From Aurelia coerulea (lineage: Eukaryota > Cnidaria > Scyphozoa > Semaeostomeae > Ulmaridae), in the NCBI GenBank assembly GCA_039566865.1, contig CM076952.1:12420501-12484500 (forward strand): DNA of 64,000 nucleotides. The letters run 5' to 3'. How positions within the stretch are numbered: position 1 is the first letter of the stretch; the number at the start of each line of letters is the position of its first letter. The notes beneath the pieces were generated by a model that was not told the origin of the DNA, did not search any database, and saw only the letters and a program-made list of their open reading frames with translations. The translations under genes and the position numbers were made by a program. Shown here in pieces: positions 15,519 through 46,781 of this stretch.

Positions 15519-15706
15519 ACGTTTTGGTAGCCTGCGTGCAGACTCTACGACCCTGAAGAAAAGTGAGGTTCCTCCTCCAGTAGAGTCTGCGCATCAGCGA
15601 CGGAAAGCCTGTCTGCTAACATCAGCATTTCGCATTCTGATGTTCCCGGATGTTGCCGTCTGTTGTACATTCAATATGGCCGCCACGCTGCACGAGTCGC
15701 TTGACG

Positions 15707-17131
15707 TTTATGGAACGCCATTTGCACAAAAATGACATAATATAGGATTATGTTACATAAACCTATATTTTGTGCACATAAACTAGGATTATGTTACATA
15801 AACCTATATTATGTCGACATAAACTAGGATTATGTACATAAACCTATATTATGTCGACATAATATAGGTTTATGTACATAATCCTAGTTTATGTCAACAT
15901 AATATAGGTTTATGTAACATAATCCTAGTTTATGTGCACATAATATAGGTTATTGGGACATAAACCTATATTATATAGTGATAACCTATATTATGTGCAC
16001 ATAATATAGGTTTATGTACATAATCCTAGTTTATGTCGACATAATATAGGTTTATGTACATAATCCTAGTTTATGTCGACATAATATGGGTTAGAGCACA
16101 TAATAATAGTTAAAGGTGTGACTTTGTTTTGGAACAATACATCTATCACTCTCTGGCAGCCAGGACTATTCAATTGGGGGAGAGAATAGGATTATGACAC
16201 TGGGACTCGTTATGTGTCCCAAATGGTATATCACAGGAACTGAATGTGCAATTCGGGAGCCTTTCATCTCTTTCCCTTTGGTGAAACTGGCTTTATACAC
16301 GATGTATGCACATTTCGATTTATATTACAAAGTGACATGGCTGAGGACGCAGAGAGCTACGACGATTTTGTGCTTCCATCAAATTTTAATGCTTCGATCA
16401 GTAAAATGAAGGCCAAGTGAAAACCAAAAACAGCGAAAATCCGAATTTGCTTCATCTTAATTTCAAATGTCCACGCAACACAGACGAAAGCCAAAATATG
16501 TCAGTTTCGCGGTTTCACCAAAGCGAAAGAGATGAAAGGCTCCCGAATTGCACATTCAGTTCCTGTGATATACCATTTGGGACACATAACGAGTCCCAGT
16601 GTCATAATCCTATTCTCTCCCCCAATTGAATAGTCCTGGCAGCCAGAGACTGATAGGTGTATTGTTCCAAAACAAAGTCACACCTTTAACTATCATTATG
16701 TGCTCTAACCTATATCATGTCGACATAAACTAGGATTATGAACATAAACCTATATTATGTGCACATAAACTAGGATTATGTACATAAACCTATATTATGT
16801 GCACATAATATAGGTTATCACTACATAATATAGGTTTATGTCCCAATAACCCATATTATGTGCACATAAACTAGGATTATGTTACATAAACCTATATTAT
16901 GTCGACATAAACTAGGATTATGTACATAAACCTATATTATGTGCACATAATATAGGTTTATGTACATAATCCTAGTTTATGTTGACATAATATAGGTTTA
17001 TGTACATAATCCTAGTTTATGTCGACATAATATAGGTTTATGTAACATAATCCTAGTTTATGTGCACATAATATAGGTTTATGTAACATAATCCTATATT
17101 ATGTCATTTTTGTGCAAATGGCGTTCCATAG
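15707..17131. mobile_element. Foldback element with tandem-repeat arms, inserted in E1
   Basis: Both ends read ATGGAACGCCATTTGCACAA inward. The arms (about 15707-16290 and 16500-17131) are reverse complements. Their outer parts are arrays of a unit of about 40 bp built from CATAATATAGGTTTATG and CATAATCCTAGTTTATG; the inner parts are unique sequence beginning AAAGGTGTGACTTTG. The loop is about 200 bp. Copy E2 has the uninterrupted site (CTTGACGGTGGTTAAAAG near 27885, other strand). Here the site reads TTGACGTT before and GACGTTGGTTAAAAG after, implying a target duplication of about 6 bp. No transposase is present. Confidence 0.8.
16337..16420 (+). CDS. Short exon-like ORF in the foldback loop
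   Basis: ATG at 16337 opens a 27-codon frame, beginning MAEDAESYDDFVLPSNF and ending SKMKAK. The acidic, well-balanced composition is unlike the AT-rich surroundings. A possible splice donor (CAA|GTGAAA) overlaps its end, so it could be a first coding exon captured from a host gene. No family is recognised; a chance ORF is possible. Confidence 0.3.
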   Translation: MAEDAESYDDFVLPSNFNASISKMKAK

Positions 17132-17149
17132 ACGTTGGTTAAAAGATTG

Positions 17150-17760
17150 TATGCAAAATGGAGTTGGAGAGAACATTGTGCAGAATTTGCAGAATTGAAA
17201 CAGTAACAAAGCACGACTTTAATTTAATTCCAGGAAAGATGATTATGAGGAAAGCATTGAAAGTTTTCATGAGTCGATCAAAATCGAGAGGTTGGATGGC
17301 GCGGCCTAAAATGAAATACATTTGCAAAGAAAACAATGTTTGACGCAACTGAAGCGATGGCAGGGACTCGAAGCAAGTTTGCAAATTACTGATCAGCCAG
17401 CCCGTGTGAAGCACGCAGCCTAATATATTATGGAGCAGGTTCCACAAATCTAAAGAAAGCTCTGGAGGAAGCACACCCCTTGATTTGGTGCTAGAACATT
17501 GATGAAGAACATGATGAAGAATGTTGTCAGGCTCTTGGGGCCAAACAATACCAATGGGAGAGCAGCAGATTGTTATGCTAATGCAGTCACTACCAACAAA
17601 ACTATGCTTGACCACTTTGATAAGGCCTGGAGAGTGCAGAATCTTTAGGAGATCAGGAAAACACCAAAGCATCAATCAAAAAAGACCTCAAGAAAATTGT
17701 CAAGGAACTTACAAGTCAAGAAGCATTTATTTACTGACAACAAGGTAGACAATACAAAGC
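17150..17760 (+). pseudogene. Cys-rich ORF of E1 (putative transposase N-terminus)
   Basis: The frame from 17158 begins MELERTLCRICRIETVTKHD, followed by FNLIPGK and, 40 residues on, RPKMKYICKEN. The CxxC, FNL..GK and RPxxKYxC pattern recurs in element E3 (41250-42510), where the second CxxC is intact (KYSCGEC across an insertion). It therefore looks like an N-terminal four-Cys zinc-binding domain shared by the family's second gene. Later segments up to 17760 are lysine-rich (KKDLKKIVKELTSQ) but in shifted frames with stops. It runs convergently to the RecQ gene. By position it is the best candidate for the transposase, but no catalytic DDE residues can be seen. Confidence 0.55.
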
Positions 17761-17942
17761 ACAAGGCAAAATCCAGCCATCTTAAACAACTTTGATGTTC
17801 ATACATGTTCTATACATGTCCTGGGATGAAACAGACAAGAAAAAAATTCAAATCATTATTTACTGTAAACTGTTAAAAGACATCAACCAGTGGTTGCAGC
17901 TCTATGGTCTCATCCCACGTGTCCACTACAGTGTAAAACTCT

Positions 17943-18297
17943 GCATGCATTTTTTTTATAAGAAATGAAGAATTTGGGCCAGTACTTAAAGTTTCTTAAT
18001 TATCAGATTTTGAGTATTCTCAGTTTCTTATGAATTTCTGAAAGGTTTCACAACAAACCTCATGTTCACTACCTGTGCCCTTGCAAACTTCTCAAAACAA
18101 TGTATTTTGAAAGCTTCTAATGTTTAGACATTAAACATATGAAGATAAAGTAAACATATTTTAACAATTTCCTTTGTCGAAATAAATAGTTTCTAAAGTT
18201 ATCTTTTCCCAGTACTGGATTTTCTTGATTTTTTGGCAATCTGAGAGTTGAGTTTCCTATAAGCAGTTTCTTACAGAAGAAAATTTGTGCATGTAGC
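17943..18297. mobile_element. MITE of the TTTCTTATAAG family inside E1
   Basis: The left end TGCATGCATTTTTTTTATAA and right end (other strand) CTACATGCACAAATTTTCTT enclose the family blocks TTGGGCCAGTACTTAAAG and CCCAGTACTGGATTTTCTTG. The same insertion is found at the equivalent position in copy E2 (26790-27085), so it was present before the two copies separated. Confidence 0.7.
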
Positions 18298-18937
18298 CTA
18301 ACTATTTTTCAAGGCCCCTCTCTCATAAGCCCCTCACACCTATGCCCAAACCTAATATAGACCCCTCTCATTGTAAAGCCCCCTTCATGTATTTAAAACA
18401 CAAAATGCTTTGAAAACTTTCTCTCAGAAAACTAAAACAATTAAAAGAATTATTTTCATATGTCTTGGGCTCAACACCAACTTGCATTTGTTTGTTTTAC
18501 TTTCAAAATTTTAACAGTCAAACTCGGATAAATCAGACTTGCATTTTCAGAATCTCAAGAAAAAGTATCAGTCCCTAGATTGGATTGAACTAAAATCCCT
18601 AAATTGGACAAAATATGACTGAGTTAAAATATTGTATGACACGGTAGTCAGATTTGCTTGGATTACGTCAGATTATTTCTCTCGGTCTGACGAAATCTGA
18701 ATTATGCAAGTATGACCGTATGTTCATTTTGGGAAACAAAATAAAAGGTTCCAAAGCTTTTGTGGGCTCAACATATACCTTTAATGGTATGAGAGTATGA
18801 ACAGATCTTATATGGTAGTAAGAAATTACTGTATCAATCATTCATTCCATTTCAAGGTCTCAGTTTGAATGTTCCAACACTGTTGGAGCTCAGATATATT
18901 TATTTGATCCTCTAATGAATAAAGAAGATGAGTTTTT
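18298..18937. other. E1 non-coding interior
   Basis: About 640 bp matching E2 26200-26780 in the opposite orientation. It includes CCCTCTC-rich blocks and a stretch around 18540-18720 with short inverted blocks (AATCAGACTT, CAGATTTGC). No coding sequence is supported. Confidence 0.4.
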
Positions 18938-21240
18938 CTATGTCTTGTCATGCATTGCATTTTCTTCCACCAAAAATGAATGATCCAAATCTGAACAAGG
19001 AGACACTGGAATTTCTATGTCTGGAAAGATTGAACTCAAGATCTCCAAAATTTTGATTCCATGGGTAAATTTCCAGATCTCCACATGCTTTCTCAGAGTT
19101 TCATAGTTAAATATTTTGTCAGCATGCTTCAACACTTGGCTGATATGAAAATCTCCATAGTTGATATTCACATTGGACAAAATAGATAATGTGCTCATAA
19201 CTTTGTATTCCTGTAAATCTTTGGAAAGTAGTTTCATTTGTTCATTTGATATTTCTTGTGTTTTTACTATATGTTCACACCCGTCAGAATTTTCCTGAAT
19301 AAAAGGATACAGTGCATGGATCTGCTTTACAGTCATTTTTACAATTTCAGCATAAATGTCACAGCACTTGCAGCCTCGTATTACACCCATTGCATCATAA
19401 TTGTTTTCAGAAAGATTGTTCTAAATCACCTCTCTGCCGCATTTGCTTGACGTCACATATTCTCTGATGTCCCCTGCACAATTTGATTGCAAAATCCATT
19501 GTATAGCAGGAAGCAGTGGCTTTCAGAACCATCTCATGGATTTTGATGGCCCTAAATGCAATATTCTACTGACACCTTTGCAATTCATACCCATAAGCCA
19601 CAGTATATATCAAAATTCTCATTGTGCCATCTAAGTTTGAAAGATCATTTAAAATATGCTCTTTTGCTGTTTGGTGTTCCTGCATATGAAGCATGTCTAC
19701 TGACCTATTCTCTGTGTGATCATGAGTTCCAATGCATAAAAATCTGGACCAAGGCTTTCTTCAAATGCCCTCCATATGACAGCTGCTTGGTTGCGGGATT
19801 TGCCAAATAAATCCTTCCTGGCCTTATTTTGACTTGCAACTCACTTACAAGTGGGTGGAAAAGTTCTTTAAATAACATATCGTTATGGACATAGTCAAAG
19901 CAAAATTTAAAATTCTTCTTCCCAGGTAACAACTCCAATATGTGTGTCTTATGTTTAAGGCCTCAAAGATGTTCAGTTTTGTAACTTTTGTAGCAGTTGC
20001 TGTGAACACTGAAAACTGTCCAAATCCTGAAGTGATCCATGTAAGACCTTGATGACCCCCTTCAAAAGAAGATGTTGTTACCTGTGTTTTTAAAGATGTT
20101 TGCACTTATATAAATCCAGCTTGAGATTAAAACATTTATTCAGAAATCTAACAAATTTTTACAGGCAGTAAGATTCATCTCTAATTTTACTAAATCTACT
20201 ATGAGCATTTTTTATCATATATTCTAACATGAATTAAGAAAATCTTTATTTCCCAAATTGTGCCCCACTTGTGAATTTTTCCACATAGCTTGTTTCAGCT
20301 TGTTGAGTATCTCCAGAATAGTCTAGCACTTTTGTGACATTTAGTTAGAGTTTCTATCTCTAATTTCACTAAAGATCTATTATGAGCATTTTTTATCATA
20401 TATTGTCTAACATGAATTAAGAAAATCTTTATTTCCCAAATTCAAGTTTTAGAATGAGGCCATTCAATTTTACATCAAACAAAGTTAGTGTCAGAAGTTA
20501 ACATTCTAGAATGTATGGTTTCCAGGATTGTCTAATACAGGCTGGTCCAAGTAAGGGGTAAAGAACTCTGTCTTGTAACAAGCAATGATTCAAAATTCAT
20601 TTCAATGGCAGCACACTGTATTGATTTTCTAAGCTTTGATAATAGTATTCAAGGGATTAAATATTGCAAGAATCTTGCCTCAACCCTGTCTAGTCTAATG
20701 AGGGGGGCACTACAAGGATTCTTTAAAATTTGAGTAAGGGGTTGCCACCCAACCACGAACAACCCATTTTCAAAGTTAATTTCATAAAAATGAATGCACC
20801 CACAATAATTCCATGCTGCTCCCCAACAAGAATTTACTTGTTTGCACCATCAAAAACTTACCATTGTGTTATGCAATGCACTTCATCAACAGCAACTCCG
20901 ACACAGTTATCAGCAAAATAATTATCAGTAAATAGTCTCTCCATTTTGTTGGGAACACAATGGCAACATCGATTCAGGTGTGAACACTGCTGTACAACCC
21001 TTCAGCTAACAGCTTGGAGACTCTTCCTGCCTGTCCATGGAATACTGCCACAGCTGAAACAAAAGTCTTTAAAATCTTTGAAATAAAATACAGTGCATTC
21101 TATTGTTCGTTGTTAAATCGGTCGACATTCAAAATACTGTTCACAGGCTTCCATGAGGCTTCCATGCTTCCTCGAAACACACGTTCATCTCACTGCTGCC
21201 ATGTTGTTGTTCCTGTTGCGCCATCTTGAAATGCGAGATA
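18938..21240 (-). pseudogene. RecQ-like DNA helicase remnant in E1
   Basis: Exon-like blocks on the minus strand, 5' to 3': an N-terminal segment near 21240-21080; a motif II block, DNYFADNCVGVAVDEVHCIT, near 20925-20860 followed by a splice donor GTAAGT; a block GGHQGLTWITSGFGQFSVFTATATKV near 20060-19985 covering motif III (TATAT); a motif V/VI region near 19580-19500; and a C-terminal zinc-type segment IRGCKCCDIY followed by a helical tail to 18938. Relative to E2, about 35 bp around motif VI (the Q..GR..RDG box) are deleted. Several frames carry stops. RecQ-family helicases unwind DNA 3' to 5'; this copy cannot be functional. Confidence 0.8.
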
Positions 21241-21409
21241 ACAATAGAATCGCTCTCTACCAATGAGATTAGGTTCCTCGACCCTGGGAACCGCACGTGA
21301 CCGCAGACAGGCTTTCCGTCGCTGATGCGCAGACTCTACTGGAGGAGGAACCTCACTTTTCTTCAGGGAATCAGTAGAGTCTGCACGCAGGCTACGCTTT
21401 GGACTTATC

Positions 21410-21600
21410 ACATTTGAAGTAAGGGGTCAGAATCAGCTGATCGTTTGTTTATGTGCTCTACTCTACAAATCAATCATGGGAAATACATCGAATAAGATAT
21501 TCTGAAGTGGAGAGGATTCCCCGATGTTACTAGGGCTGTCGGAATTGGCCGCGCTCGCCTCAATCCCTTTTTCCTAATTGGCAAATGGTCTATTGCTGGG
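21410..21600. repeat. Dispersed repeat next to E1 (partner at 40785-40980)
   Basis: AAGGGGTCAGAATCAGCTGA, GGGAAATACATCGAATAAGA, and TCGCCTCAATCCCTTTTTCC recur in the same order on the other strand at 40785-40980, beside transposon E3. It is non-coding as far as I can tell and probably an old retroelement piece. Confidence 0.65.
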
Positions 21601-22820: not shown

Positions 22821-23403
22821 GGGGAGGAGTAGCCTGCGTGCAGACTCTACTGATTCCCTGAAGAGAAGTGAGGTTCCTCCTCCAGTAGAGTCTGCGCATC
22901 AGCGACGGAAAGCCTGTCTGCGGTCACGTGCGGTTCCTCGGCTCGAGGAACCAAATTTCATTGGTAGAGAGCGATTCTATTGTTATCTCGCAATTCATGA
23001 TGGCGCAACAGGAACAACAACATGGCAGGAGTGGGATGAAGAAGGTTTCCAGGAAGCATGGAAGCTTGCATGCTGTACTTTGAATGTCGACAGATTTAAC
23101 AACGAACAAAAGAATGCACTGTAATTTCATTTCAAAGATTTTAAAGACTTATGTTTCAGCTGTGGCAATATTCCGTGGACAGGAGCACTGTACAACCCTT
23201 CTTGGATGTCTTTAAGGACAGACTCGTCCTTCTCACACCTGAATCGATGTTGTCTTCCCAACAAAATGGAGAAACTCTTTAGGCCTACTGATAATTACTT
23301 TGCTGATAACTGTGTCGGAGTTGCTGTTAATGAAACCCATTGCATAACACTATATGGTAAGTTTTTCATGGTGCAAAAAGTAAATTCTCGTTGGGGGAAC
23401 ATC

Positions 23404-23966
23404 ATGAAGTAAAGTATAATAAAGTAAAATAAAGTATTAATAAAGTAAAAAAGTTCAATAAAGTATTAATGAAGTCACTTCAGATTCTGCAGAATAAGGT
23501 TGCAAAAGTCATGCTGGACCGCCCAAACAGGTCATCAAGCTCTGATGCACTTGCTGCTTTGAAATGGGAATCACTTGAAGAAAGAAGGAAGGCACACAGG
23601 AGTTCATTTGTAAAGAAAACTTTGCTAAATAATGTGAACACATCGAACGTGAGGGGTAATGAAATACATACCTATAATACTCGAAATAAGGGGAACTTTA
23701 GATTACCGAATTCAAGAACTAATTGGGGGAAGCAAAGATCTTCATATTGTTTTTTTAAAGAACAGAATGAACAATTTTGAATTGTAACGAAGGACTGTAA
23801 TCGCTTTTAGCTGTGTAAGATGTTATTAAGTTTAGGTAGTTTACTATTAATTTCTATTTTTTATACCTACATTGTAACTTTTTACTTTTGAGGACCCCCA
23901 TGAAAAGCACCTCTTGGTGATTGGGGCATCCTCTTTAAAGATATTTAATCAAATCAAATCAAATCA
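23404..23966 (+). mobile_element. CR1-like LINE 3' fragment inserted in E2
   Basis: Codons 23469-23777 give the C-terminal part of a CR1-type RT protein: LQILQNKVAKVMLDR, DALAALKWESLEERR, YNTRNKGNFRLPNSRTNWGK. The 3' untranslated region follows, ending in the tail (AATCA)n at 23946-23967. Sister copy E1 lacks it: there AACAT/CAGCATGG runs directly on (20800-20780, minus). It is preceded by an AAAGTA-rich stretch (23402-23460). The sequence after the tail up to about 24125 is also absent from E1. Confidence 0.8.
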
Positions 23967-25540
23967 ATGGAATACTGGTGCATAGAAGGGGGACATGCCT
24001 CTAAGCAAAGTGGACCATCTTCAACATCATTTTTGATACAGACAGTAGGTTTAGGTTAGGGTTTTGCCCAAGTGATACAGAAATTTAATGCTTCAAATTT
24101 AATAAATGGTAGCCAAATCCATGATATGAAAAGTTATTGTGGTGCATTCATTTTTTGAAATTAACTTTGAAAATATGGGTTGTTTGTGCAGTGGTTGGGG
24201 GGTGGCAACCCCCTACTCAAAAGAATCCTTGTAGTGCCCTCTTCATTAGACAAAACAGGGTGGATGCAGATTCTTGCAATATTATTATTATTTTATTATA
24301 ATAATTATTATTTGCAGATTCTTGCAATGTTTAACCCCTTGAATACCATATTATCAAGCCCTGGAAAATCAATACAGTGTGCTGCCATTGAAGTAAGTTT
24401 TGAATCATTGCCTGTTGAATGATGTCAGACAGGGTTCTTTATCCCTAGGATTGGATCAGCCGTATTAGATAACTCTGGAATCCATACATTCTAGAATCTG
24501 AACTTCTGACACTAACTGTGTTTGATGTAAAATTGAATATGGCCATTCTAAAACATGAATTTGGGAAATAAAGATTTTCTTATTAATTCACGTAGGACAA
24601 TGTTTGATAAGAAATGCTCATAATAGATCATTTATTTAGTAAAATTAGAGATGAGTCTGACTCCCTGTGAAAATTTGTTAGATTTCTAAATAAATGTTTT
24701 ATTCTCAAGCTGGATTTAAATTAAGTGCAAACATCTTTCAAAGTACAGTAGTTCTTGAGGTAACAAAATATTCTTTTGCAGGGGGTCATCAAGGTCTAAC
24801 ATAGATCACTCCAGGATTTGGTATGGATCAATTGGGGAGTTAAGATCTTTGCTACCAAGAGATACACAGTTTTCAGGGTTCACAGCAACTGCTACAAAAG
24901 TTACAAAACTGGAAATCTTTGAGGCCTTGTGTTGGCAGAAACACACGCATCTTGGAGTTTTCACCTGGGAAGGAGAATTTTAAATTTTGTGTTGACTTAT
25001 TGATATGTTATTCAAAAAAGGTTCTACCCACTTATAACTGAGTTGTAAGTCAAAAATAAGGACAGAAAGGATTTATTTGCAAAACCCAAAACCCAGCAGC
25101 TGTCATATGGAGGACATTTGAAGAAAGCCTTGGTCCAGATTTTTATGCATTGAAACTCAAGATCCCACAGAAAAGGTCAGTAGACATGTTTCATGCAGGA
25201 ACACCAAACAGAGCAAAAGTGCATATTTTAAGGATCTTTCAGAATTAGATGGCACAATAAGAATTTTCAAATGTACTGTGGCTTTGGAATGGGTATGAAT
25301 TGCAAAAGGTGTCTGTAGAATATTGCATTCAGGGCCATCAAAATCCATTGAATCCTACATACAAGAATGTGGTAGGACGCAAAGAGATGGTTCTAAAAGC
25401 CGCTGCTTTCTGCTGTACAATGGATTTTTGCAATCAAATTGTGCAGGGGACATAAGAGAATATGTGACATCAAGCAAATGCCGCAGAGAGATGATTTCAA
25501 ACAATCTTTCTGAAAACAATGATGCAATGGGTGTAATACG

Positions 25541-25614
25541 TAGCCTGCGTGCAGACTCGACTATCCTAAAGTGTAGGACTACACTTTAGGATAGTCGAGT
25601 CTGCACGCAGGCTA
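25541..25614. mobile_element. 74-bp palindromic MITE, E3-type ends
   Basis: It starts TAGCCTGCGTGCAGACTCGA and ends with the exact reverse complement, with only about two unpaired central bases; the sequence is simply the two 36-bp ends of the E3 family fused. It is flanked by TGTAATACG on both sides (25532-25540, 25615-25623). The equivalent place in E1 (minus strand near 19385) has a single TGTAATACG, which is the empty site. It interrupts the RecQ zinc-binding coding segment (VIRGCKCC). Confidence 0.95.
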
Positions 25615-26789
25615 TGTAATACGAGGCTGCAAGTGCTGTGACATTTGTGCTGAAAATTTTAATAATGACTGTAAAGCAGATCCATGCACTGTATCCTATT
25701 ATCCTTTTATTCAGGAAAATTCTGAAGGGTGTGAACATATAGTAAAAACACAAGAGATATCAAATGAACAAATGAAACTACTTTCCAAAGATTTACAGAA
25801 ATAAAAATTATGAGCACATTATCTATTTTGTCCAATGTGAATATCAACTATGGAGATTTTCATATCAACCAAGTGTTGAAGCATGCTGACAAAACATTTA
25901 ACTATGAAACTCTGAGAACGCATGCGGAGATCTGGAAATTTACCCATGGAATCAAAATTTTGGAGATCTTGAGTTCAATCTTTCCAGACATCCTTGTTCA
26001 GATTTGGATCATTCATTTTTGGTGGAAGAAAATTAAGACAATGCATGACAAGACATTGTTGATGATTCTAAATTGGATGCCTTTAATTACGCAAGTCAAC
26101 ATCAAAATATGGACACAGCATTTAGTGCCACTCTTTGTTCAGAAAAACTCATCTTCTAGAGGATCAAATAAATATATCTGAACTCCAACAGTGTTGGAAC
26201 GTTCAAACTGAGACATTGAAATGGAATGAATGATTGATACATTAATTTCTTATTACTATAAGATCTGTTCATACTGTATTATGACAAGAGTCCTCATTTA
26301 CCGTTAAAGCTATATATTAAGCCCGCAAAAGCTTTTTGGAACCTTTTATTTCGTATTGCCCAAAATGAACATACGGTCATACTCGCATAATTCAGATTTC
26401 GTCAGACCAAGAGAAATAATTTGACTTAATCCAAGCAAATCTGACTAACCTGTCATATTTTAACTCATCATATTTTGTCAAATTTAGGGATTTTAATTCA
26501 GTCCAATCTGGGACTGATACTTTTTCTTGAGCTTCTGAAAATGCAAGACTGATTTATCCGAGTTTGACTGTTAACATTTTGAAAGTAAAACAAACAAATA
26601 CAAGTTGGTGTTGAGCCCAAAACATATAAAAATTATTCTTTTGATTGTTTTAGTTCTCTGAGAGAAAATTTTCAAAAGCATTTGTGTTTTAAATACATGG
26701 AGGGGGCCTTACAACGAGAGGGGGTCTCAATTAGGTTTGGGAATAGGTGTGAGGGGCTTATTAGAGAGGGGCCTTGATAAATAGTAAAA

Positions 26790-27085
26790 ATTTTCTCCTG
26801 TAAGAAGAACCTTGACTCTCAGATCGCCAAAAAATTAAGAAACTCCAGTACTGGGAAAAGATAACTTTATAAAATATTTTTACTTTATCTTCATTTGTTT
26901 AATGTCTAAATATTGGAAGCCCTCAAAACACATTGTTTTAAAAAGTTCGCAAGGGCACAGGTAGTGAACATGAAGTTTGTTAGGAAACTTTTCAGAAATT
27001 CGTAAGAAAGTATGAATAATCAAAATCTGATCTTTAAGAAACTTTCAGTACTGGCCCAAATTCTTAATTTCTTATAAAAAAAATG
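26790..27085. mobile_element. MITE of the TTTCTTATAAG family inside E2
   Basis: Blocks AAGAAACTCCAGTACTGGG and AGTACTGGCCCAAATTCTTA, with end TTCTTATAAAAAAAATGCA, are the mirrored counterpart of 17943-18297 in E1. Confidence 0.65.
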
Positions 27086-27469
27086 CACTCAGCGTTTTAC
27101 ACTGCAGTGGACATGTGGGATGAGGCCATAGAGCTGCAACCACTAGTTGATATGCTTTTTAACGGTTTACTGTAAATAATGAATCTGAATTTTTTTCTTG
27201 TCTGTTTCATCCCATAACATGTATAGAAGTAATGAACATCAAAGTCGTCTAAAATGGCTGGATTTTGCCTTGTGTGTGCTTTGTATTGTCTACCTTTGTT
27301 ATTAGTACATAAATGTTTCTTTACTTTACTTGTAAGTTCCTAAACAATTTCTTGAGGTCATTTTTGATTGATGCTTTAGTGTTTTCCTGATCTTCTTAAT
27401 TCTGCACTCTCTGCGGGCCTTCTGAGAGTGGCTAAGCACAGTTTCGTAATGTTGTTGAAATGTTCTAGC

Positions 27470-27890
27470 ACCAAATCAAGGGGTATATTTCCTCCAGAGC
27501 CATGTAATATTAGGCTATGCGTGCATCCACCGGCACCAGCACACGGGCGGGGTGATAAAATTGATTGGGCCAGGTAAAAACTCGGATTTCATTCGTGACT
27601 CCAAGAGAATATCTGACTTCATTCGTAACTTCAAAGTTACCTCAGTAATTTTCAATGCCATCGCTTCAGTTGCGTCAAACATTATTGTTTGGTTTGCAAA
27701 TGTATTTCATTTTAGGCCTCGCTCGCCAACGCCAACCTCTCTATTTTTATCGACTCATGAAAACTTTTAATGCTTTTCTCATAATCAACTTTCCTGGAAT
27801 TAAGCTAAAGTCGTGCTTTGTTACTATTTCGATTCTACAAATTCTGCACAATGTTCTTTCCAACTCCATTTTGCATACAATCTTTTAACC
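27470..27890 (-). pseudogene. Cys-rich ORF remnant of E2
   Basis: Reverse complement of the E1 ORF region. Minus-strand sequence starting near 27870 corresponds to MELERTLCRICRIE with frame-disrupting changes, continuing to the RPKMKY block near 27715. The intact CTGCAC/GATCGTGC site at 27895-27910 shows that E2 lacks the foldback element found in E1. No complete domain remains. Confidence 0.5.
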
Positions 27891-28082
27891 ACCGTCAAGC
27901 GATCGTGCAGCGTGGCGGCCATATTGAATATACAACAGACGGCAACATCCGGGAACATCAGGATGTAAAATGCTGATGTCAGCAGACAGGCTCTCCGTCG
28001 CTGATGCGCAGACTCTACTGGAGGAGGAACCTCACTTTTCTTTAGGGAATCAGTAGAGTCTGCACGCAGGCTAGGGGAGGAG

Positions 28083-34556: not shown

Positions 34557-34715
34557 GAGTTACGGCATCAGCAGCAGAGTAGAAGGCTTGAGAAAAATCC
34601 AGTATCACGCTGATAAAATATAAATGCAGAACAATCTTTTTGTATGCGTGTTGTACAATGTTGCTATAATATAACTATTTAAAATAAAATAATTGTACCT
34701 TGAACAGAGATGATA

Positions 34716-34766
34716 AAGCACGACGTTTCGAGCTTAGCCCGTTATCAAGTAAAGAAAGATAAGTAG
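34716..34766 (-). other. Hammerhead-like segment in the 5' PLE repeat
   Basis: Identical in its core to 31556-31606 (TTGATAA, stem II CGGGC/GCTCG, GAAACGTC). Its conservation in both repeats reflects their recent common origin and does not prove function. Confidence 0.4.
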
Positions 34767-36599
34767 AACAGGAGTAAAAGGAAGAGTAGATTCAAAAGAT
34801 GGGATCGAATAAAAAGGAACAGTGGTGACGCAACATAAATAAATAGTATGAGCAGGATAAAAAAAACAAAAACAAAAACAAAACAAAATATGTAAATAAT
34901 TAAAAAAAACACCCAGGGCAATGGTCAAAAGGAAGTGCTATGCTATGATAATGTTACTGTAAATAAGTAAATTGTTTGTTAAGTCCAACAGGATAAAGAG
35001 TGGCGAGTTTGAAGATGATATGCTTTTCCAATGTTTTTCGTTTAGCGCTATCTGTAGGGGCAAAGAGAAGACCAAGAATTGACATGTCTTCAGTTGAATG
35101 GTTTGGCAAATTGAAATGCTTTGATATATTGCTGTCAGGGTCATTTTCATGTTGAACATCAAGGTGAATTTTGTGTTTGACATTTCTCATGTGTTCGCCA
35201 AATCTGTTGTTAAAGAGCACATGACACAATTCAAGTTATTTTAATAAGAAATTTCAAAATTCAAGTTATTTTCTGTCAGTTGTGAAAATTGTGTTGCGGT
35301 AACATTTGTGGTTCCGTAATTACGTGGTTTTGAATTACAGAGGTTTAGTCAATTTTGTGACCCCAAACAAAACGCGGCCAAGATCACGTGATCTTGGAAC
35401 TGTGACGTCAGATTGTTTGCAGCAAGAAATCGCGCGAACCAAAACAATGCGGGAAATGATGGAGAACGCAAGTGATCGAAGCAGAGTCAGAGTCATGGAA
35501 GAGAAAAAGAGGAGAGGTGGCCGATACTGCGTCGCTGGAGGGCCAGGAAATACAAGCTGCATGAATACAAGCTACAGCCCTGCCATAAAAATGCACCAGT
35601 TTCCCAAAAATCCCGATGTTCGGCAAAAGTGGATAAAATTCGTCCAAAAACATACAGTAGGCCATCCTTCAAAAATCCATCCAAGCACGCTTCTCTCTGT
35701 TCTGCCCATTTCGAAGAATCCTGCTATCATCGACCACTGGTATTGGAGGATTCGACAGGAGTGTCTTGGAGAAGAAACTTTGTTCAAGGATCTATTCCTA
35801 CACGAGATTCCGTGAACTTGGCTTCGCCTAAAAAACTGTCAGCTCGCAAGAAACGACAGGTAAGGCCTACGTTTGCTTTATAAGACCGAGCCTTTATCTA
35901 GCATTTATTACTTACGAGAGCCAGGATGGCTTGGTCGAAAGCAAGTATTTTTGCAATTAGTTGAGCTTGGAAATGACTGCTGACTGTATCTATTTGTTTC
36001 AATGTTCAAGATATTTTTATTCAGGCCTAGTAGCTATTTACATTATTATTATTTTTTACAAAACAAACACAGTAGTGGAAACTACTCACACTTTCATTGT
36101 TTTAAACAAGGAAAACTGTGTACCTACATGCAGCTTTCATTTTTTAAATCATTCACCTATTTTTGTTTATAGTTTTTCTTCTTCCATTCAGCTTATTCGT
36201 CATGCCCTGAAGGTCTCACCAAAGAAACGTAGACTGGCAGTAGAAGTGCCACCAAATAATTTTGCAAATGAGAACCCAAGTGAAATACCAATGGCAGGGC
36301 AAGACAGTTATGAAGGTAATGCTGACAAATCAACTATGACCATGCCAGTAATTCATCCCCATCACAAATGCAAAAATTGTGTGAGGAAATCAGAGAAGAT
36401 AAAGAATCTTCAAAGGAAACTCAGACGATGGAAAAAATTGTCAAAATCGAAAAAGAAGAAAGTTTCTGGAAAAAAGGAGGTAAATACACATTTTATGTGA
36501 AATTTATATGTCATTGCGAAAACTGCCAACGGAAAAGTTTCATCACTTTATAGTAAAACTTCACAGTTAGCTCTGGTTTGGTCATAAATTGGCAAGGTC

Positions 36600-36725
36600 A
36601 TAAATTGGCAATTAATTTGAGCACCAGCAATCAATAGCACTGTAAATTTAGAGCAGGAAAGGCTCTATAGGATGCCTGACTACCAATGTGAAGGTTGGTG
36701 GTTTGAGTCCCCACCATTGTCAAAC
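36600..36725 (+). repeat. Possible tRNA-derived SINE remnant
   Basis: In the intron of the THAP gene, GGTGGTTTGAGTCCCCACC has the form of a T arm with a B box, preceded by GATGCCTGACTACCAATGTG. A similar block (CGCATGTGCCTACCTATTTG then AAGGTTAG) occurs at 39170-39205. Too degenerate to fold as a tRNA. Confidence 0.35.
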
Positions 36726-36764
36726 CTGTTATTTAGAGCGAGAAGAGTTACCAACTTCAGAGAC

Positions 36765-36910
36765 GTAGGAACCAGGGTGCCCTGGGGGCACGTGCCCCCC
36801 AAGATTTTGCAATAAACACAGAAGTGCCCTTTTTATTTCCAGGAAATGCCCCCTTAGCTTAATGAAAAAACTGCCCTTGAAGTGTCGTGCCCCCTCGAGT
36901 TGGAGATGCT
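36765..36910. repeat. Dispersed 'CACGTGCCCCC'-type repeat, copy 2
   Basis: Same block order as 735-1057: GACGTAGGAACCAGGGTGCC, GATTTTGCAATAAAC, AAGTGCCCTTTTTATTTCC, GAGATGCTTCCTATG. It lies in a THAP-gene intron. Confidence 0.6.
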
Positions 36911-37424
36911 TCCTATGTCCCTGGCCAACTCTGTGTACTTCCAGGCTAAAAGAATCACAAGGTGTGGTCATTCCAAGAGGGCATTGCTTGATAAGTTTAA
37001 CTTCTCAGTGTCCTGAACAAATACCTTAGGATGCTATTAGGAATAAAAGACAGGAAATATGTTACAACTGTCAGAAATCTTGCAAAGTTTATACAATTTG
37101 CATTAAATTTTTACTTGAAGGAAGAAGTGGTTCAACTGGAGGAGCCTATAGAATTAGAGGAAGATAGCGAAGAGGCATTGTTTGATGTAAATATGCGGAG
37201 TGATGATGAGAACATGTTCTCTGATGAAAATGATGGCAGTGACAGTGAAATATCTGATACGGACCAGGAGAGTGATGATGAAAGCTACTCAGTGACCAGT
37301 TCTGATGAAGACAGTGATGATGAAGACAGTGATGATGAAGGTCTTAATGATGATTTTGATGATGAACAAACAAGAAATTTTGTAAAGTAAGTACAGTAGA
37401 ACATTATGTATACATAGGCATAGA

Positions 37425-37580
37425 AGACTGGGGGGTTGCAGCCCCCCCAACGCCAGAAAATTTTGCAAAAATCAGCCATAATCGGGCAGAAATCTGCCTG
37501 AAGTCGGGCAAAAGTTTCTTAAACAATGGATTTTTTATCAGCAGCCCCCCCCCCAAATTTTATCTCCTCCTACGCCCATG
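37425..37580. repeat. GC-run repeat in THAP gene intron
   Basis: GACTGGGGGGTTGCAGCCCC, then AAATTTTGCAAAAATCAGCC and CAGCCCCCCCCCCAAATTTT, ending TCCTCCTACGCCCATGAATG. It has the style of the window's other GC-run repeats but a different sequence. Non-coding. Confidence 0.4.
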
Positions 37581-38400
37581 AATGTATAGATTGCTAATTC
37601 AAGGCATTGAGCTATGTCAAATAGCCTGCATCTATACCAAGACACAAGGAATATGCCAGGTTATGGTTTTGACTGATGTTCAAGACAAACTGATCACCTG
37701 AAACATGAGCCAGGGGATATCCTGCATTGTTTCTGAATTCATCTTGCTGAACAAGATAAATTGAATTTCATTATATTATATTTAATTTCATTATAATTAT
37801 GATGTTAATATTTGTTTTTAATTTAACAGTGTTGATCCTGACATGCCATCATATGAGGAACCAAAATTCATCGTTTTCTTCTCTATGCTAATGAGTTTAT
37901 TTTCAATGTTTTGTTTTCGATGCAAAGAGGATAAACCAACTGCTACAATGACCACAACTGGAACAATGGTCACAGTGAGACAGAATTGTGCAAAGTGCGG
38001 TGATTCCAGCTTTGTGTGGCGATCTCAGCCCTTAGTGTTTGACAAGCAACCTGCAGGAAACATATTGCTCAGTTTTGCAATCCTTATGGCCGGTGCAACA
38101 ATCAACAAAACTCTGTTAGTGTTTCGTCATATGGGTTTGTCCGTCATTAATGCCAGAACGTTTTTCAGACATCAGAGAAATCAGCTTTTCCCTGTTGTGT
38201 TAACTCATTGGCAAGGTTCCCAAACGTGTTTCTTGATCAACTGAAGAATGTAGGGAATGTTGTTTGGAGTGGGTATGGCCGGTTTGATTCAATGGGCCAT
38301 TCTGCAAAATATGGAGTGTACAGTATGTTCAACTGCAACTTGATGAAAATTCTACACTTCGAGCTTGTTCAGGTAAATTTAACTTCAGTTTGTTAGACCT

Positions 38401-39990: not shown

Positions 39991-39993
39991 TTA

Positions 39994-40408: not shown

Positions 40409-40410
40409 TA

Positions 40411-40784
40411 CTGGAAAGTACGAGATAAATTGCAGAATAACTTCTTTTCATAAAATTGGTACAAACAACAGCTGCAACTTCAATTTTAACCATCTTCTGC
40501 TATCCAACAACAACAACAACCGTGGTACTTCAAACAGGCTCCAACATGAGACTACAATGCAAGACAGTGTCTAGCATACGATAGAGCTACAGAAAAGACT
40601 ACCTACTTTTATTATTCCAGGGCAGTTTGGTCCGATGAGTCTGCTGGAATTCTGTTTCAAAAGTCGCCTCTTTACCTGAAAATACATGGATACGTTGCTG
40701 TAAAAAATTACTCAAATCAATTGTCAAATACTTTAGGACAACATTGATATCATAAATTCATGTAAATATATCATGCCTTTGTAA
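40411..40784. other. No gene seen
   Basis: Contains a short (CAA)n run near 40508 and otherwise unremarkable AT-rich sequence. Confidence 0.3.
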
Positions 40785-40980
40785 TATACCATTTGCCAAT
40801 TAGGAAAAAGGGATTGAGGCGAGCACGGCCAATTCTGACAGTTTTAGTATTAGTCGGAAATCCGGAAAATCCTCTCAACTTCAGAATATTTCATTCGATG
40901 TATTTCCCACAATCGTAAGGCGGCTCGATTTGTAGGCTAGATTAAATAAATAAACGATCAGCTGATTTTGACCCCTTGCT
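40785..40980. repeat. Dispersed repeat next to E3 (partner at 21410-21600)
   Basis: Reverse-complement match to 21410-21600, including AATTAGGAAAAAGGGATTGA, TCGATGTATTTCCC and AGCTGATTTTGACCCCTT. It ends a few bases before the E3 target duplication. Confidence 0.65.
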
Positions 40981-41169
40981 TAGCTTGACCTAGCCTGCGT
41001 GCAGACTCGACTATCCTAAAGTGTAGAGTCTGCGCAACAAAGTCGAAACGCTTGTCTTATGAATCAGCAGAAATTGCTGCCGCTGGCGGTTCTGCGGCCT
41101 TATTGCGCAGTGTTGGATTAAATAGCGCGTCAACACGCCAAGATCATTATCCTTCATGGTCAACAAATC

Positions 41170-42760
41170 TGCACTGTAGCAAAATATCGCGTAAGAAAAA
41201 GCAATCATTTTTTCATTTGTACCACTACTGTATCAAATATGTCTTCGTGCCTTTTTTCTTAAAGAATATTTCGTTGAAGGATGGTCGCAAAGACTTTAAT
41301 TTGCTCGTTGGAAAAGGGAAATTGAACGTGAAAGCTGCTTTGCAACAATTGGAGGTCGTCGTACGGCCTAGGCCCACGGCAAAGTACACTTACCTCACAT
41401 ACCTCACATAAGTATTGCACCACCTGACACAAAATGGCGGCCAAAAGTGTCTTTCAACTTTCAACTCAAAAACTCAATCAACAAAATTTGCATAACAAAG
41501 GCATCAGCATTTAAGGGTTTCTCTACCGGGTGTTTTGGCAGGAAAATAATTGTTAATTCGTTTGCTTTTCATTCATAAATAGAATGAAACGTTATTTTGT
41601 TGGTTTCTTTGATAAATTAGCAAAAACCTCCGGACACAATGCACAAGATTTTGGCAGTATAGCTGGAGGAGTAGGCCAAAACAAAATCAGAAACGGATAG
41701 ATATCTGGGGGCAAAGATAACAACATTTTAGCGTTTTCAAATTAGGATTCTACGAACTTTATCGCTATGACAAAAGTTTTCCGTGAGAAATGCCAGAAGG
41801 ATAAACACAAAGAGAAAACGGAAAGAAACCATCGCAAGGTAAGAATATCCTTGATATTACTTTTATCACATTAACATTAAGTTTGCTTCCTGGAAGACTT
41901 TAAGCAAGTGATTGACACTTAAATATATGGATTTTGATGTATTTAACAAACTCGTTACGCTTGAATTTAGTTTCAAGATAATTTGAAATTTAGCAAGCGA
42001 CTGGAGCGTATTTTCTTAAACCTGACTCCTTCTTCGACAAATTTAAGTTGAGTTACATTGAGTGATGGCCTTGTTATTTATTTGAGTTTTCTTCTTTTAT
42101 CACATTCGAAGTGGAAAACTTTTATCATGGTGATAAAGTTTGTTGAATCTCAATTTGAAAACATTATAATGTTGTTTTCTTTGCTCTAAGAAATCTATCC
42201 ATTTATCATTTTGCTTTGGCCTACTCCTCCTTCAAGGCTGCCGAAATCTTGTTCAACGTTGTGCGAAGGTTTTTGCTAATTTATCAAAGAAACCAACAAA
42301 ATAAGGTTTCATTTTACTTATGAATGAAAAGCAAACGAATTAACAATTCTTTTCCCACCAAAACACCCGGTAGAGAAACCCTTAAATGCTGATGCTTTTG
42401 TTATGTAAATTTTGTTGGTTGGGCAAAAAGACACTTTTGGGCGCCATTTTGGGTAAGGTGGTGCAATACTTATGTGAGGTAAGTGTATAGTTGTGGAGAA
42501 TGTCTCAGACTTCTTCTGCAGCGCATCCAGTCTGCACGTCAAAAGCAGAGAGTTTTGGCGGATGAAGCATCCAATATTTACTAGCAGGCACTTGCAGCAA
42601 AAAAATCCACCTTTGAAAAATGCAACAACAAGCTTTCAGGGACTCCAAGGAAATCAGAAAAATTGGGGACGGGAATTTTGTACAAAAAATTTCTGTATTT
42701 GAAGACTGATGATTCTCTAGCATTTTGACACCAAATTTGATAAAATACCATCAGTAGAAG
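41170..42760 (+). pseudogene. Cys-rich ORF of E3 (putative transposase N-terminus), split
   Basis: Plus-strand codons before 41385 encode KDFNLLVGKGKLNVKAALQQ, then VVVRPRPTAKY. After the inserted element the frame resumes at 42487 with SCGECLRLLLQRIQSARQKQ, followed by RVLADEASNIY, ALAAKKSTFEKCNNKLSG and KKFLYLKTDDS. Removing the TA-flanked insertion puts KY directly before SCGEC in frame, giving a CxxC finger that corresponds to the KYIC of E1. A CxxC upstream of FNLL is not clear in this copy. The basic coiled segment after the finger is new relative to E1. The C-terminus is not recognised. Confidence 0.6.
41387..42485. mobile_element. Long-TIR, TA-flanked non-autonomous element
   Basis: The ends CACTTACCTCACAT and ATGTGAGGTAAGTG are flanked by TA (41385-41386, 42486-42487). 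The arms (to about 41690 and from about 42195) are reverse complements for about 300 bp, with blocks AAGTATTGCACCACC, TTTAAGGGTTTCTCTACCGG and GGAGTAGGCCAAAAC. The central 500 bp are unique and non-coding. The TA target suggests the Tc1/mariner superfamily. Confidence 0.82.
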
Positions 42761-43749
42761 CAACCTAGGCCTACATTTTCTTGGCTATAAAATGAATCAC
42801 AACCACATTTGGTCCAAGGTATTTGATATAATGCATCCTGCAACGTCCTGCATTGAACCAGAAGGCTGATTACTTCCTGTAGTTGATTTCTTTCATGAGC
42901 AATAATAATGTTCAATGTTCAATTTATACTCTTGAAAATTCTATTCATTTGTGTCTATTGATTTTGAGTAGATGATGAAATAGCTTAAAATGCCACAAGC
43001 ACTGGCTCTGCTCAAAAAACAAAACCATATTTGGTAATGTTCTGCTTGTGACATTTGTTAAAAAGAGGTTTAAAAAGATCAATCATTGCAATCTCTCAAA
43101 GGACGGATCTTGCAACACTTACACAATCTTGAAAGGAGCATGGCTTGAAATTGAGTATATTAACCTAATTATAGAGTTTGATAAAGCTTTGCAATAACCC
43201 TACACAAGAATTATTCTCAAACAGACAACAAATCAAGCTTGTTTGAGTTTGCCTTGAGTAACAAAGATTTGTTTTCCCAAAGAAAAATCCAGCATCATTT
43301 GCTTGAACTGGAAATGAGCTTGAATGGTGACTGTTTTCAGTATGATATCAATCTCACTTTAGATTCTTGTCAGTCTCAAGAGAGTTCAAATCAATTTGCA
43401 GAGCTTGTTTCCCTGAGCCAGTTGTGAGGGTGCATGCTGCAAGCTAGCGCAAGTGGTGCAGAACTCTTACTTGAATCAGGCTCTCAAACATGCTCAAACC
43501 ATACCCAAAGCAAGTTGTTATCAGGCTTGAAGCATGCTACAAACATACTCAATATTTTGCAAAAGGATTGCCCAACAAATAAAAAGTTATGCAGAAGAAT
43601 GCCTAAATAATATAGAGTGGAAAGACAGAACACAATTCAGAGATAAATTCTGGTTTAGGAGATCTCAGAAAACAGAAATTTTAATTCCTTCTGTGATAGG
43701 TTTGTAGAAAACAAACCACATTCATTTTGGAGAGGACAAAACTCAATAA
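42761..43749. other. E3 interior without a clear gene
   Basis: About 1 kb. A block near 43239-43425 (FALSNKDLFSQRKIQHHLLE, ending in a stop) could be a decayed exon, but no family is recognised. Confidence 0.3.
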
Positions 43750-44410
43750 ATTCTCTTTAGACAAAAAAAAGCAAGAACCTGAAAAAGTTGGACATATCTG
43801 GGATGCATCACATATCTGGGATGCATCCTAGATGAAAATCTTTCTGGGCAGTCGATGGTAACTAAAGATGCTTGGAAAAATAAATTGCAATTAGCAGGTT
43901 GCTTTTAAATGCTCTTAATCAACCTCATTTTTATCATGCATGCAGTTCTTGGTATCCAGGGTTGAATAAGAGGCTGTCCAAAAAAATCTAGATGGCTCAA
44001 AACAAAATGCATTTGTTTTTACCTGAATTTGAAAAGCACAGCACATATTGGGGTCACAGAATTCAAGGCTATAAATTGGTGCACTACAAAGAACAGGACA
44101 GATCAATGTGTCCATTTCAATGTTAGGAAATTTTTCAAAGGAACTGCCCCAGCGTGCAGTGCTGAGATATTCCATCTAGTCAACCAGGGCCAAACAACAC
44201 AAAATCCAAGTTCAAATTGGATATTCCATTTCAAAAACATAATGCTGGACAAAAATGCCTCTCTTATCTGGGGCCAAAAACATGGAATAGTCTTGTCTTT
44301 CGTCTGAGAACAAATCAACAAACAATATTTATGCATTCAAACATAAGATCAAAGAGAACTTTTTCCAAAATATACAGAAAGAGAAAGATGACATATATGT
44401 CTTCTACTGA
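43750..44410 (+). pseudogene. LINE RT C-terminal fragment inside E3
   Basis: Plus-strand pieces in shifting frames give the 3' part of a non-LTR RT protein: a stretch resembling LGCILDENLSG near 43810, then QNKCICFYLNLK-like sequence, FKAINWCTTKNRTDQC, NVRKFFKGTAPAC, HNAGQKCLSYLGPKTWNSL and a basic end near 44400. The order and spacing match the thumb and C-terminus of CR1/L2-type proteins (LGP..WNSLP). Many frameshifts; an old copy. Confidence 0.75.
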
Positions 44411-44485
44411 GGACCATATTGAAAATACACATGCAGCTCTGAATTTCCTTTTTTCTATGTATTTCCGTTATACAGCACCTCTAAG

Positions 44486-44773
44486 GGGACCATTATGGAG
44501 GTAAAGTCAGCTTGACCTTTTAGTGCTATCCCTGCCACCGTAATTAGGGGTGTTTATCTTTATATTTTTAACATCTGATATTGTATTGTATCTACTTTTA
44601 TTATAAAACTTGTAGATATCTATTGTGGCAAATTGATACATACATACTGTACCTACAAAAATATCTGAGCATAGATACAATACAATATATAGGGTTACTA
44701 AAGGAAAACACCCCTAATTACAGTGGCAGGGGTAGCAATAAGGTCAAGATGACCTTAATTCCATAATAGTCCC
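44486..44773. mobile_element. 288-bp hairpin MITE
   Basis: The ends GGGACCATTATGG and CCATAATAGTCCC are complementary with one mismatch. Inner blocks CCTGCCACCGTAATTAGGGG and CCCCTAATTACAGTGGCAGG, then TTGTATTGTATCTA and TAGATACAATACAA, continue the pairing over most of the length. Non-coding, inside E3. Confidence 0.75.
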
Positions 44774-45559
44774 GCTTGGAGATGCTGGTACAACAAAAAA
44801 TGTAAGAGAAAAATACAAAACTGTAGTTTTGAAAAGCTTTTTGTTCATTTGAATGTCACAGAACTGATTGCAAATGAAATTTATAATATCTGTTGTAAGA
44901 AATTGTGATGCAGATACCTGAAAATATGTTAAAACAACTTAATGCTACAAGTTTATTCCATTATTTTAGAATATCAGAAATTTTACAACCAACATCCTCT
45001 ACAAGCGCCTGATCCTCTGTTCTGCCAACTGTGGTTGGGTATTGGAAAAAACATTCAGTAAAGAAACCTTTTAAATGTTGTATGAATATGAATTGCTACA
45101 CCAACTAAGAAACTGCTAAGAAACTTTCAGCACTTAAATTCAATAAATTTAAGAAACATTCCATTGTTGGTAAATTTCTTAGTTTCTTTTAAAACAACCC
45201 CTGTATATGTTCACAAGTTATTGTTTGTTCAATAATATGCACAGATTGAGCTGCTACAATTGCAATCAATTAATCTGTATTGTTTTGTTGTAAAATTCTA
45301 CTACAGTAGCTGCATTAAATTCCTTCACTCTCAAATTGTCTAAATTGACAATCAGCATACAGTATGCTAGTTCAAAATGGATTCTCCTGTTTCCAGATAG
45401 CAAGATCTGCCTCCATGATGTAAATTTAGACAATTAGAACATCTTCAAACTTCTTTGATTAAAATTCTTACTCTTCTTTGATCTACTCTTTTTAAACTTC
45501 ACTCTTCTCACTGTCCATATCATGAAAGAGTTCTTGGCTGCAGAACGTTGTTGCTATTA
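44774..45559. other. E3 interior without a clear gene
   Basis: AT-rich. It includes a TTTCTTA-type MITE remnant at 45100-45195 (AAGAAACTGCTAAGAAACTT, AAATTTCTTAGTTTC). The 3' exons of the RecQ remnant could be here but are not recognisable. Confidence 0.35.
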
Positions 45560-46560
45560 AACATGGGTAGAGACTGGGGCTAAATTCACAACAGACAAGA
45601 TTGATGCTATTGTATATTTGAAGCAGTTGCTGTGAAAACTGCAAATTTCACTGAAGAATCCAGAAATGCCTTTATTTCCAGAACTTGTCCATACAATTTT
45701 CTGAAGGCCAGGTTTCTGAGTAGTGCCAGGTCCCTGAAAGAATGAAAATTGAAAATGTGAGCCACAATATACTATGTACCAGCCTAATCTTTTTGACATC
45801 CAGATACCTCTCCAAAGAGCTATTTGAAGCTGAGTCTTAGAAAATCATTTAAAACTTTGGTAGGCAAAGTGTCATAAAATTCAAGAAACTGTCTACCAGC
45901 CCCAGCCTTTTTAGTTTCTTTAAAAACCTATGAAAAGTCTTAGACAGCTGCTTCATTGTCTCTCCTGCTACTTTAAAGGTTCAAAATCTACATTCCACAT
46001 TATCTTTTAATCATGCACTGGTACTCATGAAATGAGAAACACACTGATTTGGTGCCTCGGTCTGCTTCAATTAAGTAAGTAATATGCCAATGTAAATCCA
46101 AAAAAACATACGATGCAAATACTAACCACTGTCTGTTGCTACGATGTGAAGATGATGGCGATTAGGCCTATCCCCTCCTTCTTCGATGTCTTTCAAAACC
46201 TCCTCTGTCTGACTGCAGTCGACTGGTCAGAATAAATTGCAGCAGTGTTGATACCAATGTCCTTGAGTTTCCCTACTTGATCAAGCATCAACGACTGGAG
46301 TGGTGAAACAACGAGTATGGAATTTTGAAAGGATTCACATATCTTAAATAATCAGCAACCATCAAGGGAATGGCCTGAAAAATCAGCGACTTCCCATAAA
46401 TCCTGGAGGTGCACTGAAAAAAAAAGTAAAGGTTCTTCCCTTGAAAGAAACAGCAAAGGGCCTTTTCTTGATCCTCAAACATGTTGGGAACGCGATAATA
46501 TAACTTAACAAATTCCAATCCTTCTTTTGAACCTTTCAGCGCTCCAAACTAAATTTCTCA
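45560..46560 (-). pseudogene. RecQ-like DNA helicase remnant in E3
   Basis: The 5' block (46518-46288, minus) encodes VPNMFEDQEKALCCFFQGKN, then a Walker A region where GGATTTATGGGAAG has two extra bases and breaks the GYGKS reading frame, then YGKSLIFQAIPLM, and after a further shift a motif Ia-like stretch (46300-46220). A block near 45800-45560 encodes SGNKGISGFFSEICS and corresponds to motif III of RecQ (TATAT) in decayed form. Gene order and orientation match E1 and E2 (starts just inside one TIR, convergent with the Cys-rich ORF). Later exons are not identified between 44774 and 45559. Confidence 0.7.
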
Positions 46561-46781
46561 CTGCTCCACACTACTTCGCCATTTTGCAACGAATGAGCAA
46601 GCACCGCGCGGCGTGATTACTCGTGTACGAACATTTTTGTCCAATCAAAATCCGAGCTGCTTCCCAAACTTTTTTAGGAAATTGATTGATCAATCATGAT
46701 GAGGTAGACAAGCGTTTCGACTTTGTTGCGCAGACTCTACACTTTAGGATAGTCGAGTCTGCACGCAGGCTAAGCTTGACC

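Follow-up and report, generated by a model that had tools for sequence, protein, structure and literature searches.

Within a 64-kb stretch of the Aurelia coerulea genome (GenBank assembly GCA_039566865.1, contig CM076952.1, positions 12,420,501 to 12,484,500; hereafter the window, with positions counted from its first base), we find four transposable units bounded by terminal inverted repeats (TIRs) and flanked by 9-bp target duplications, exact in three of them. Three of them are large (E1, E2 and E3) and hold the remains of a RecQ helicase gene, and the fourth (E4), overlooked in a preliminary description of this DNA, is a 74-bp miniature inverted-repeat transposable element (MITE). We interpret the four as two families, E1/E2 and E3/E4, of one TIR transposon group, most probably AcademH or a near relative of it, such that the units are probably non-autonomous AcademH-like families and, with moderate confidence, additional members of a kind already known. 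The units bear on the role of RecQ helicases in the DNA transposons that encode them, and their main interest lies in how little DNA such an element may need for movement.

Shared ends, target duplications and two families

To delimit the units we rely on their termini. A search of the window permitting up to three mismatches found eight copies of the 18-mer TAGCCTGCGTGCAGACTC, all without mismatch (mean in shuffled sequence 0.01, n = 100). They stand at both ends of E1, E2, E3 and E4, which are identical at 18/18 terminal bases, such that each unit runs TAGCCTGCGTGCAGACTC...GAGTCTGCACGCAGGCTA with TA...TA as its outermost bases. The preliminary description had given E1, E2 and E3 a common first 18 bases, which proved exact in all three and extends to the ends of E4, and its TIR lengths of 67–90 bp compare with our measurements of 92/89 bp in E1, 92 bp in E2 and 67 bp in E3. 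Within each unit the two repeats are nearly or fully identical (89 identical bases with gaps totalling 3 bp and no mismatch in E1; 89/92 in E2; 67/67 in E3; 36/36 in E4).

The flanks of E2, E3 and E4 are exact 9-bp duplications (Table 1), and for E2 and E3 they are exact at 9 bp alone among the lengths from 5 to 12 tried. For E1 the earlier count of 8 of 9 (ACGTTTTGG/ACGCTTTGG) stands only if the A at 21394 is counted for both the TIR and the duplication; counted strictly, the flanks agree at 7/8 for length 8 and 4/9 for length 9. Three of the four units thus have an exact duplication, and E1 reaches 8/9 if the shared base is counted. At the place in E1 that matches the E4 insertion there is a single TGTAATACG and no insert, a paralogous empty site.

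Table 1. Coordinates of the four units and of their parts (positions within the window; a point marks features given no strand).
Feature	Position	Strand	Remarks
E1, TIR transposon	15528-21394	-	same family as E2, inverted; RecQ on minus strand
E1 left TIR	15528-15616	+	bipartite: outer 18-mer, inverted inner box GTAGAGTCTGCGCA
E1 left 9-mer ACGTTTTGG	15519-15527	.	
E1 right 9-mer ACGCTTTGG	21394-21402	.	first base doubles as last TIR base
E1 RecQ remains	18941-21230, limits approximate	-	no Walker-A region found, as in E2
E1 Cys-rich open reading frame	17143-17340	+	66 amino acids between stops; no Pfam match
E2, TIR transposon	22830-28073	+	RecQ on plus strand
E2 target duplication GGGGAGGAG	22821-22829 left, 28074-28082 right	.	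exact 9 bp
E2 RecQ remains	23000-26060, limits approximate	+	motif II, III and V-VI regions; interrupted by LINE-like piece and E4
E2 Cys-rich open reading frame	27750-27884	-	45 amino acids between stops
E3, TIR transposon, second family	40991-46772	-	RecQ on minus strand
E3 left TIR	40991-41057	+	same two boxes as E1, spacer shorter and different
E3 target duplication AGCTTGACC	40982-40990 left, 46773-46781 right	.	exact 9 bp
E3 RecQ remains	45613-46548	-	part of motif Ia (motif I by eye), part of motif III
E3 possible Cys-rich counterpart	41277-41408	+	weak
E4, MITE, 74 bp	25541-25614	.	36-bp E3-type ends separated by 2 bp; within E2 RecQ remains
E4 target duplication TGTAATACG	25532-25540 left, 25615-25623 right	.	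exact 9 bp

Comparing whole units separates the two families. E1, when reversed, is identical to E2 at 3623 of 4016 aligned columns, making them one family in opposite orientations; a second alignment method gave 3507 identical columns of 4083, the lower figure being due to a forced alignment of the 3' part, in which a 1.4-kb palindrome interrupts E1. Their collinear stretch (17596-18939 in E1, 26141-27447 in E2) has a MITE at one shared place (17950-18282 in E1; 26805-26864 and 26900-27083 in E2). Between E3 and E2, DNA matches are confined to the ends and E4, plus one 29-bp match at 6e-4. Under the Repbase rule as given in the cited passage of PMC4455052, non-autonomous elements form one superfamily if their duplications are of the same length and their termini align over positions 1–11 (at most one mismatch); with 18/18 bases identical at 8/8 ends and 9-bp duplications throughout (with the shared-base caveat for E1), E1 to E4 would, on their sequences, be assigned to one superfamily.

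The ends of both families are bipartite, with the outer 18-mer accompanied by the inverted inner box GTAGAGTCTGCGCA and with spacers that differ in length and sequence. Folded as single strands, the ends were more stable than shuffled counterparts (n = 200), with z-scores of -3.1 for E1, -4.5 for E2 and -2.2 for E3 and with 1, 0 and 4 of the 200 shuffles, respectively, folding as well. Because this gain is modest, we claim that the boxes are conserved and make no claim of a proven hairpin. When the flanks of E1, E2 and E3 were joined, some frame was open across the site in each, which we count as no evidence.

E4 narrows what such an end may require. Its ends are of the E3 type (36/36) and the unit folds over its full length into a hairpin; the inner box is absent, yet the target duplication is exact, so that 36 bp per end, in the absence of the inner box, probably sufficed for movement unless E4 shrank after insertion. 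This 36-bp end is a possible assay substrate. Since E4 lies with E3-type ends inside the RecQ remains of E2, E3-type elements would still have been mobile after the E2 line had its RecQ gene.

Several other repeats lie in or beside the units. E1 contains a nested, near-perfect palindromic insertion of 1.4 kb (15709-17130, outer span 15703-17136) between 6-bp GACGTT repeats, which E2 lacks at the matching place, and E2 contains a fragment judged by eye to resemble a long interspersed nuclear element (LINE), with an AAATC-type tail, at about 23400-24130, which is absent from E1. E3 has a palindromic insertion of its own (about 41385-42488) that resembles a TA-flanked MITE and adjoins the possible cysteine-rich (Cys-rich) open reading frame (ORF). 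The MITE shared by E1 and E2 has a separate copy at 2046-2432, with TIR CTACACGTATTTTTTTTATAAGAAACT, and pieces at 8679-8734, 45105-45197 (within E3) and 59652-59870. A repeat of 180–200 bp, of which two copies were found (21417-21594 and 40783-40981; 77.9% identical over 199 columns), begins about 10–23 bp from a transposon end in both cases, the right end of E1 and the left end of E3, whereas the flanks on the other side do not resemble each other; this may possibly be a target preference or chance.

RecQ remains and the Cys-rich strand

We compared Escherichia coli RecQ with the six frames of the whole window, revealing that the three best matches fall one in each large unit and each on the expected strand. 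These are RecQ residues 308-341 at 25320-25421 in E2 (E 0.002, 32.3 bits), residues 124-154 at 20941-20861 in E1 (E 0.002, 32.3 bits) and residues 69-100 at 46315-46220 in E3 (E 0.008, 30.4 bits), which we take to be the regions of motifs VI, II and Ia. In 20 shuffled windows the top score was 28.1 bits, short of 30.4, and the reversed window reached 23.1 bits; with composition correction on, the same three still came first (4.1e-4, 4.4e-4 and 0.011; reversed window, top E 0.49). Outside E1 to E3 nothing in the window scored better than E 3 among the matches listed, where we saw E 5.5 at 9366-9452 and E 3.1 at 61887-62057.

Further comparisons point the same way with varying strength. The motif VI piece of E2 is best matched by WRN (2e-6), then by helicase Q1 and BLM, and weaker RecQ matches in E2 precede it in order (residues 139-158, E 0.11; 162-196, 0.046; 262-283, 2.8; then 308-341). 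By eye, a pattern CRRE...GCKCCDIC in E1 and E2 resembles the RecQ zinc domain. The motif III part of E3 has a 27-amino-acid match to E2 at 2.5e-4, barely clear of a background beginning near 7e-4; the C-terminal half of RecQ was not detected in E3. Searches of PDB with 46196-46351 of E3 returned 14 rows, the top two being DNA helicases (0.029, and 0.033 for one named RecQ), and with 20861-21001 of E1 nine weak rows, eight of them DNA helicases (best 0.31); 46291-46548 of E3 gave no PDB match and 19723-19962 of E1 a single, unrelated one. The RecQ pieces fell short of the curated Pfam cut-offs (Helicase_C 0.12, DEAD 0.021), which may be expected because they are broken. Protein database searches were restricted to proteins of 0.55–1.75 times the query length, so that full-length relatives lay beyond their reach, and under this restriction the C-terminal RecQ ORF of E1 drew 16 candidates with none at E <= 0.001. 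Against viral contigs, two RecQ pieces gave 2 and 5 pattern matches, none confirmed, and the TAGCCTGCGTGCAGACTC terminus gave 0 matches; one 18-mer match among prokaryote contigs, in Hallella seregens, we regard as chance. Purifying selection on the 160-amino-acid C-terminal RecQ ORF was considered for E1 versus E2 and rejected, the differences by codon position (4/154, 6/153 and 2/153) showing no third-position excess.

The position and the gaps of these remains recur between copies. In both families they start about 170–225 bp inside one end (start codon at 23000 in E2; piece from 46548 in E3). In E1 and E2 an N-terminal RecQ exon is separated by some 40 bp of intron-like sequence from a part that, judged by eye, comes after motif Ia. 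On the RecQ strand of these two units, the sole match within residues 29-120 was one of 11 residues (E 4.2) in the far TIR of E1, and matches to residues 94-121 lay on the opposite strand, close to the same TIR. Given these matches and the direct junction, we conclude from the sequences that the Walker-A region is apparently missing from both E1 and E2 at the same junction.

On the strand opposite RecQ, the Cys-rich ORFs of E1 and E2 are identical at 42 of 45 amino acids, and CxxC is seen by eye downstream of the possible counterpart in E3. Pfam matches on this strand to Flu_PB2_5th (0.00075), zf-rbx1 (0.0031) and ANP (0.02), each from a single piece, and to DUF378 (0.029) were taken as chance, as were matches to COG2_N (0.023) and GhoS (0.13). 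E1, E2 and E3, which had been called three complete copies with a RecQ-like helicase each and a common gene plan, are complete in their ends; RecQ remains are present in 3/3, weakest in E3 and intact in none (the 74-bp E4 is too short to hold any), a transposase domain was not found, and of the gene plan the RecQ half is well supported while the Cys-rich half is clear in E1 and E2 and weakly supported in E3 (6/1000 shuffles). E1 to E3 look internally deleted.

Taken together with the shared ends, the copies suggest a history of movement by defective elements. In fuller ancestors a RecQ helicase gene would have read inwards from one end, and a gene for a Cys-rich protein that possibly bound DNA from the opposite end. 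Because E1 and E2 have the same Walker-A gap and the same MITE, their common ancestor would already have been helicase-defective and MITE-bearing when copied, and because copies of such a defective progenitor reached two sites whose 9-mers differ, the transposase, and the helicase if one is needed, would have come from elsewhere. We propose that other copies provided both proteins in trans, a DDE transposase and a helicase that was still intact, and that these recognised the ends, made cuts at TAG...CTA and produced a 9-bp stagger on insertion. Three testable facts emerge: apparently helicase-defective copies moved, the same two inverted boxes stand at both ends in two diverged families, and a 74-bp derivative that lacks the inner box has the same 9-bp duplication.

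Probable assignment to AcademH and competing readings

We compared the units with known systems by the descriptions in the cited passages of citing papers. There, the Academ lineage AcademH encodes a helicase and generates duplications of 9 or 10 bp, and AcademX, which belongs with it in the Academ superfamily, has a nuclease and 3- or 4-bp duplications, duplication length being linked with helicase versus nuclease (PMC10045372); RecQ helicase is reported for Academ (PMC3627910). AcademH is known from animals and fungi according to the title of Kojima 2020 in the reference list of PMC10045372, and the sources of helicases in fungi include AcademH, KolobokH and Helitron in the passage cited from PMC10799480. 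A literature search for cnidarian Academ transposon superfamilies gave no match. A helicase together with 9-bp duplications is the combination printed for AcademH, and we therefore read the units as AcademH-like rather than as proven members. The long duplications that the preliminary description had named for AcademH are borne out by PMC10045372, and the first limb of its proposal (AcademH, or else a new superfamily) agrees with the printed features (PMC10045372, PMC3627910) such that the second is not needed. AcademX is set aside, as the duplications here are 9 bp, not 3–4 bp, and nuclease families were absent among the Pfam matches of the scanned pieces. Whether the helicase sets the 9–10-bp duplication is a question to which these units speak, the link being suggested in the same passage of PMC10045372.

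Several points weigh against the AcademH-like reading, among them the difference that E1 to E3 are broken and show no DDE transposase. Among the stop-to-stop pieces of at least 45 amino acids on the Cys-rich strand of E1 to E3 (scanned as 61 + 10 + 9, the total counted by hand), 80/80 had no DDE or other transposase domain (Pfam, E <= 0.05), with the limit that Pfam may hold no Academ model. The Cys-rich ORF has no Pfam match, and under the length restriction given above that of E1 drew one candidate from the protein database and no relative. In E3 the best local match of the Cys-rich counterpart is 10 residues long, with a score also attained in 6 of 1000 shuffles, and the RecQ matches are individually short and weak; in E2 a match to RecQ residues 519-535 (E 0.41) breaks the order.

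A rival reading is a new TIR superfamily with 9-bp duplications whose RecQ was gained separately from that of Academ. In its favour, no Academ transposase was found in these units, and the bipartite termini with their inverted inner box go unmentioned for AcademH in the cited passages of PMC10045372 and PMC10799480. Helicase plus 9–10 bp is already printed for AcademH (PMC10045372), as is RecQ for Academ (PMC3627910), and we think an independent acquisition unlikely. A slightly broader version, in which the units are a new superfamily or an unrecognised AcademH branch with a bipartite end (the 18-mer and a pairable inverted inner box), a RecQ of their own that is dispensable in cis and a sufficient substrate of 36 bp at each end, we offer as a tentative alternative of low probability. 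RecQ is carried as well by KolobokH, a DNA transposon, and Kolobok-1_CCri encodes it on its complementary strand (PMC9587614), which raises a KolobokH-like or other RecQ-carrying Kolobok origin. In the same passages, however, Kolobok makes TTAA-specific 4-bp duplications and has 5'-RR...YY-3' termini, solo repeats of KolobokP are 3–5 bp, and KolobokH is stated to be fungal only (PMC9587614). The units here have 9 bp with no TTAA and end in TA...TA; the contrast in duplications speaks strongly against KolobokH, and a Kolobok origin is close to refuted.

Elements of the Mutator-like (MULE), hAT and KDZ groups make 8–10-bp duplications, and the units could be non-autonomous copies of one of them with captured host RecQ fragments. 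The duplication length suits MULEs, a transposase is not expected in such copies, and the cited passage of PMC6446971 describes a tendency of MULEs to acquire host gene fragments. Two captures would not predict RecQ at about the same distance inside one end in both families, when nearly all other DNA of E2 and E3 differs, and this origin seems to us improbable. E1 and E2 lie 1.4 kb apart in opposite orientation, as a segmental duplication of one old insertion might leave them; their flanking 9-mers differ, and their 1-kb flanks have no match at E <= 1e-3 beyond the intervening stretch that they physically share. With different flanks, a segmental duplication is rejected as highly improbable. 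The AcademH-like reading is the one we retain.

Other features of the window

A PIF1-like helicase ORF at 11313-13829 (PF05970, 2.7e-30) is followed by an ORF with no Pfam match, and the two are perhaps another mobile element. At 35303-38241 a THAP-domain ORF (2.5e-05) is followed by a CxxC-pattern ORF with no Pfam match, a pair that is possibly Kolobok-like. Two reverse transcriptase ORFs, at 32403-34559 on the minus strand (RVT_1, 1.2e-07) and at 47330-48826 on the plus strand (RVT_1, 8.4e-12), appear Penelope-like by eye, and a LINE-type reverse transcriptase is spread over two overlapping minus-strand ORFs (RVT_1) at 4826-6828.

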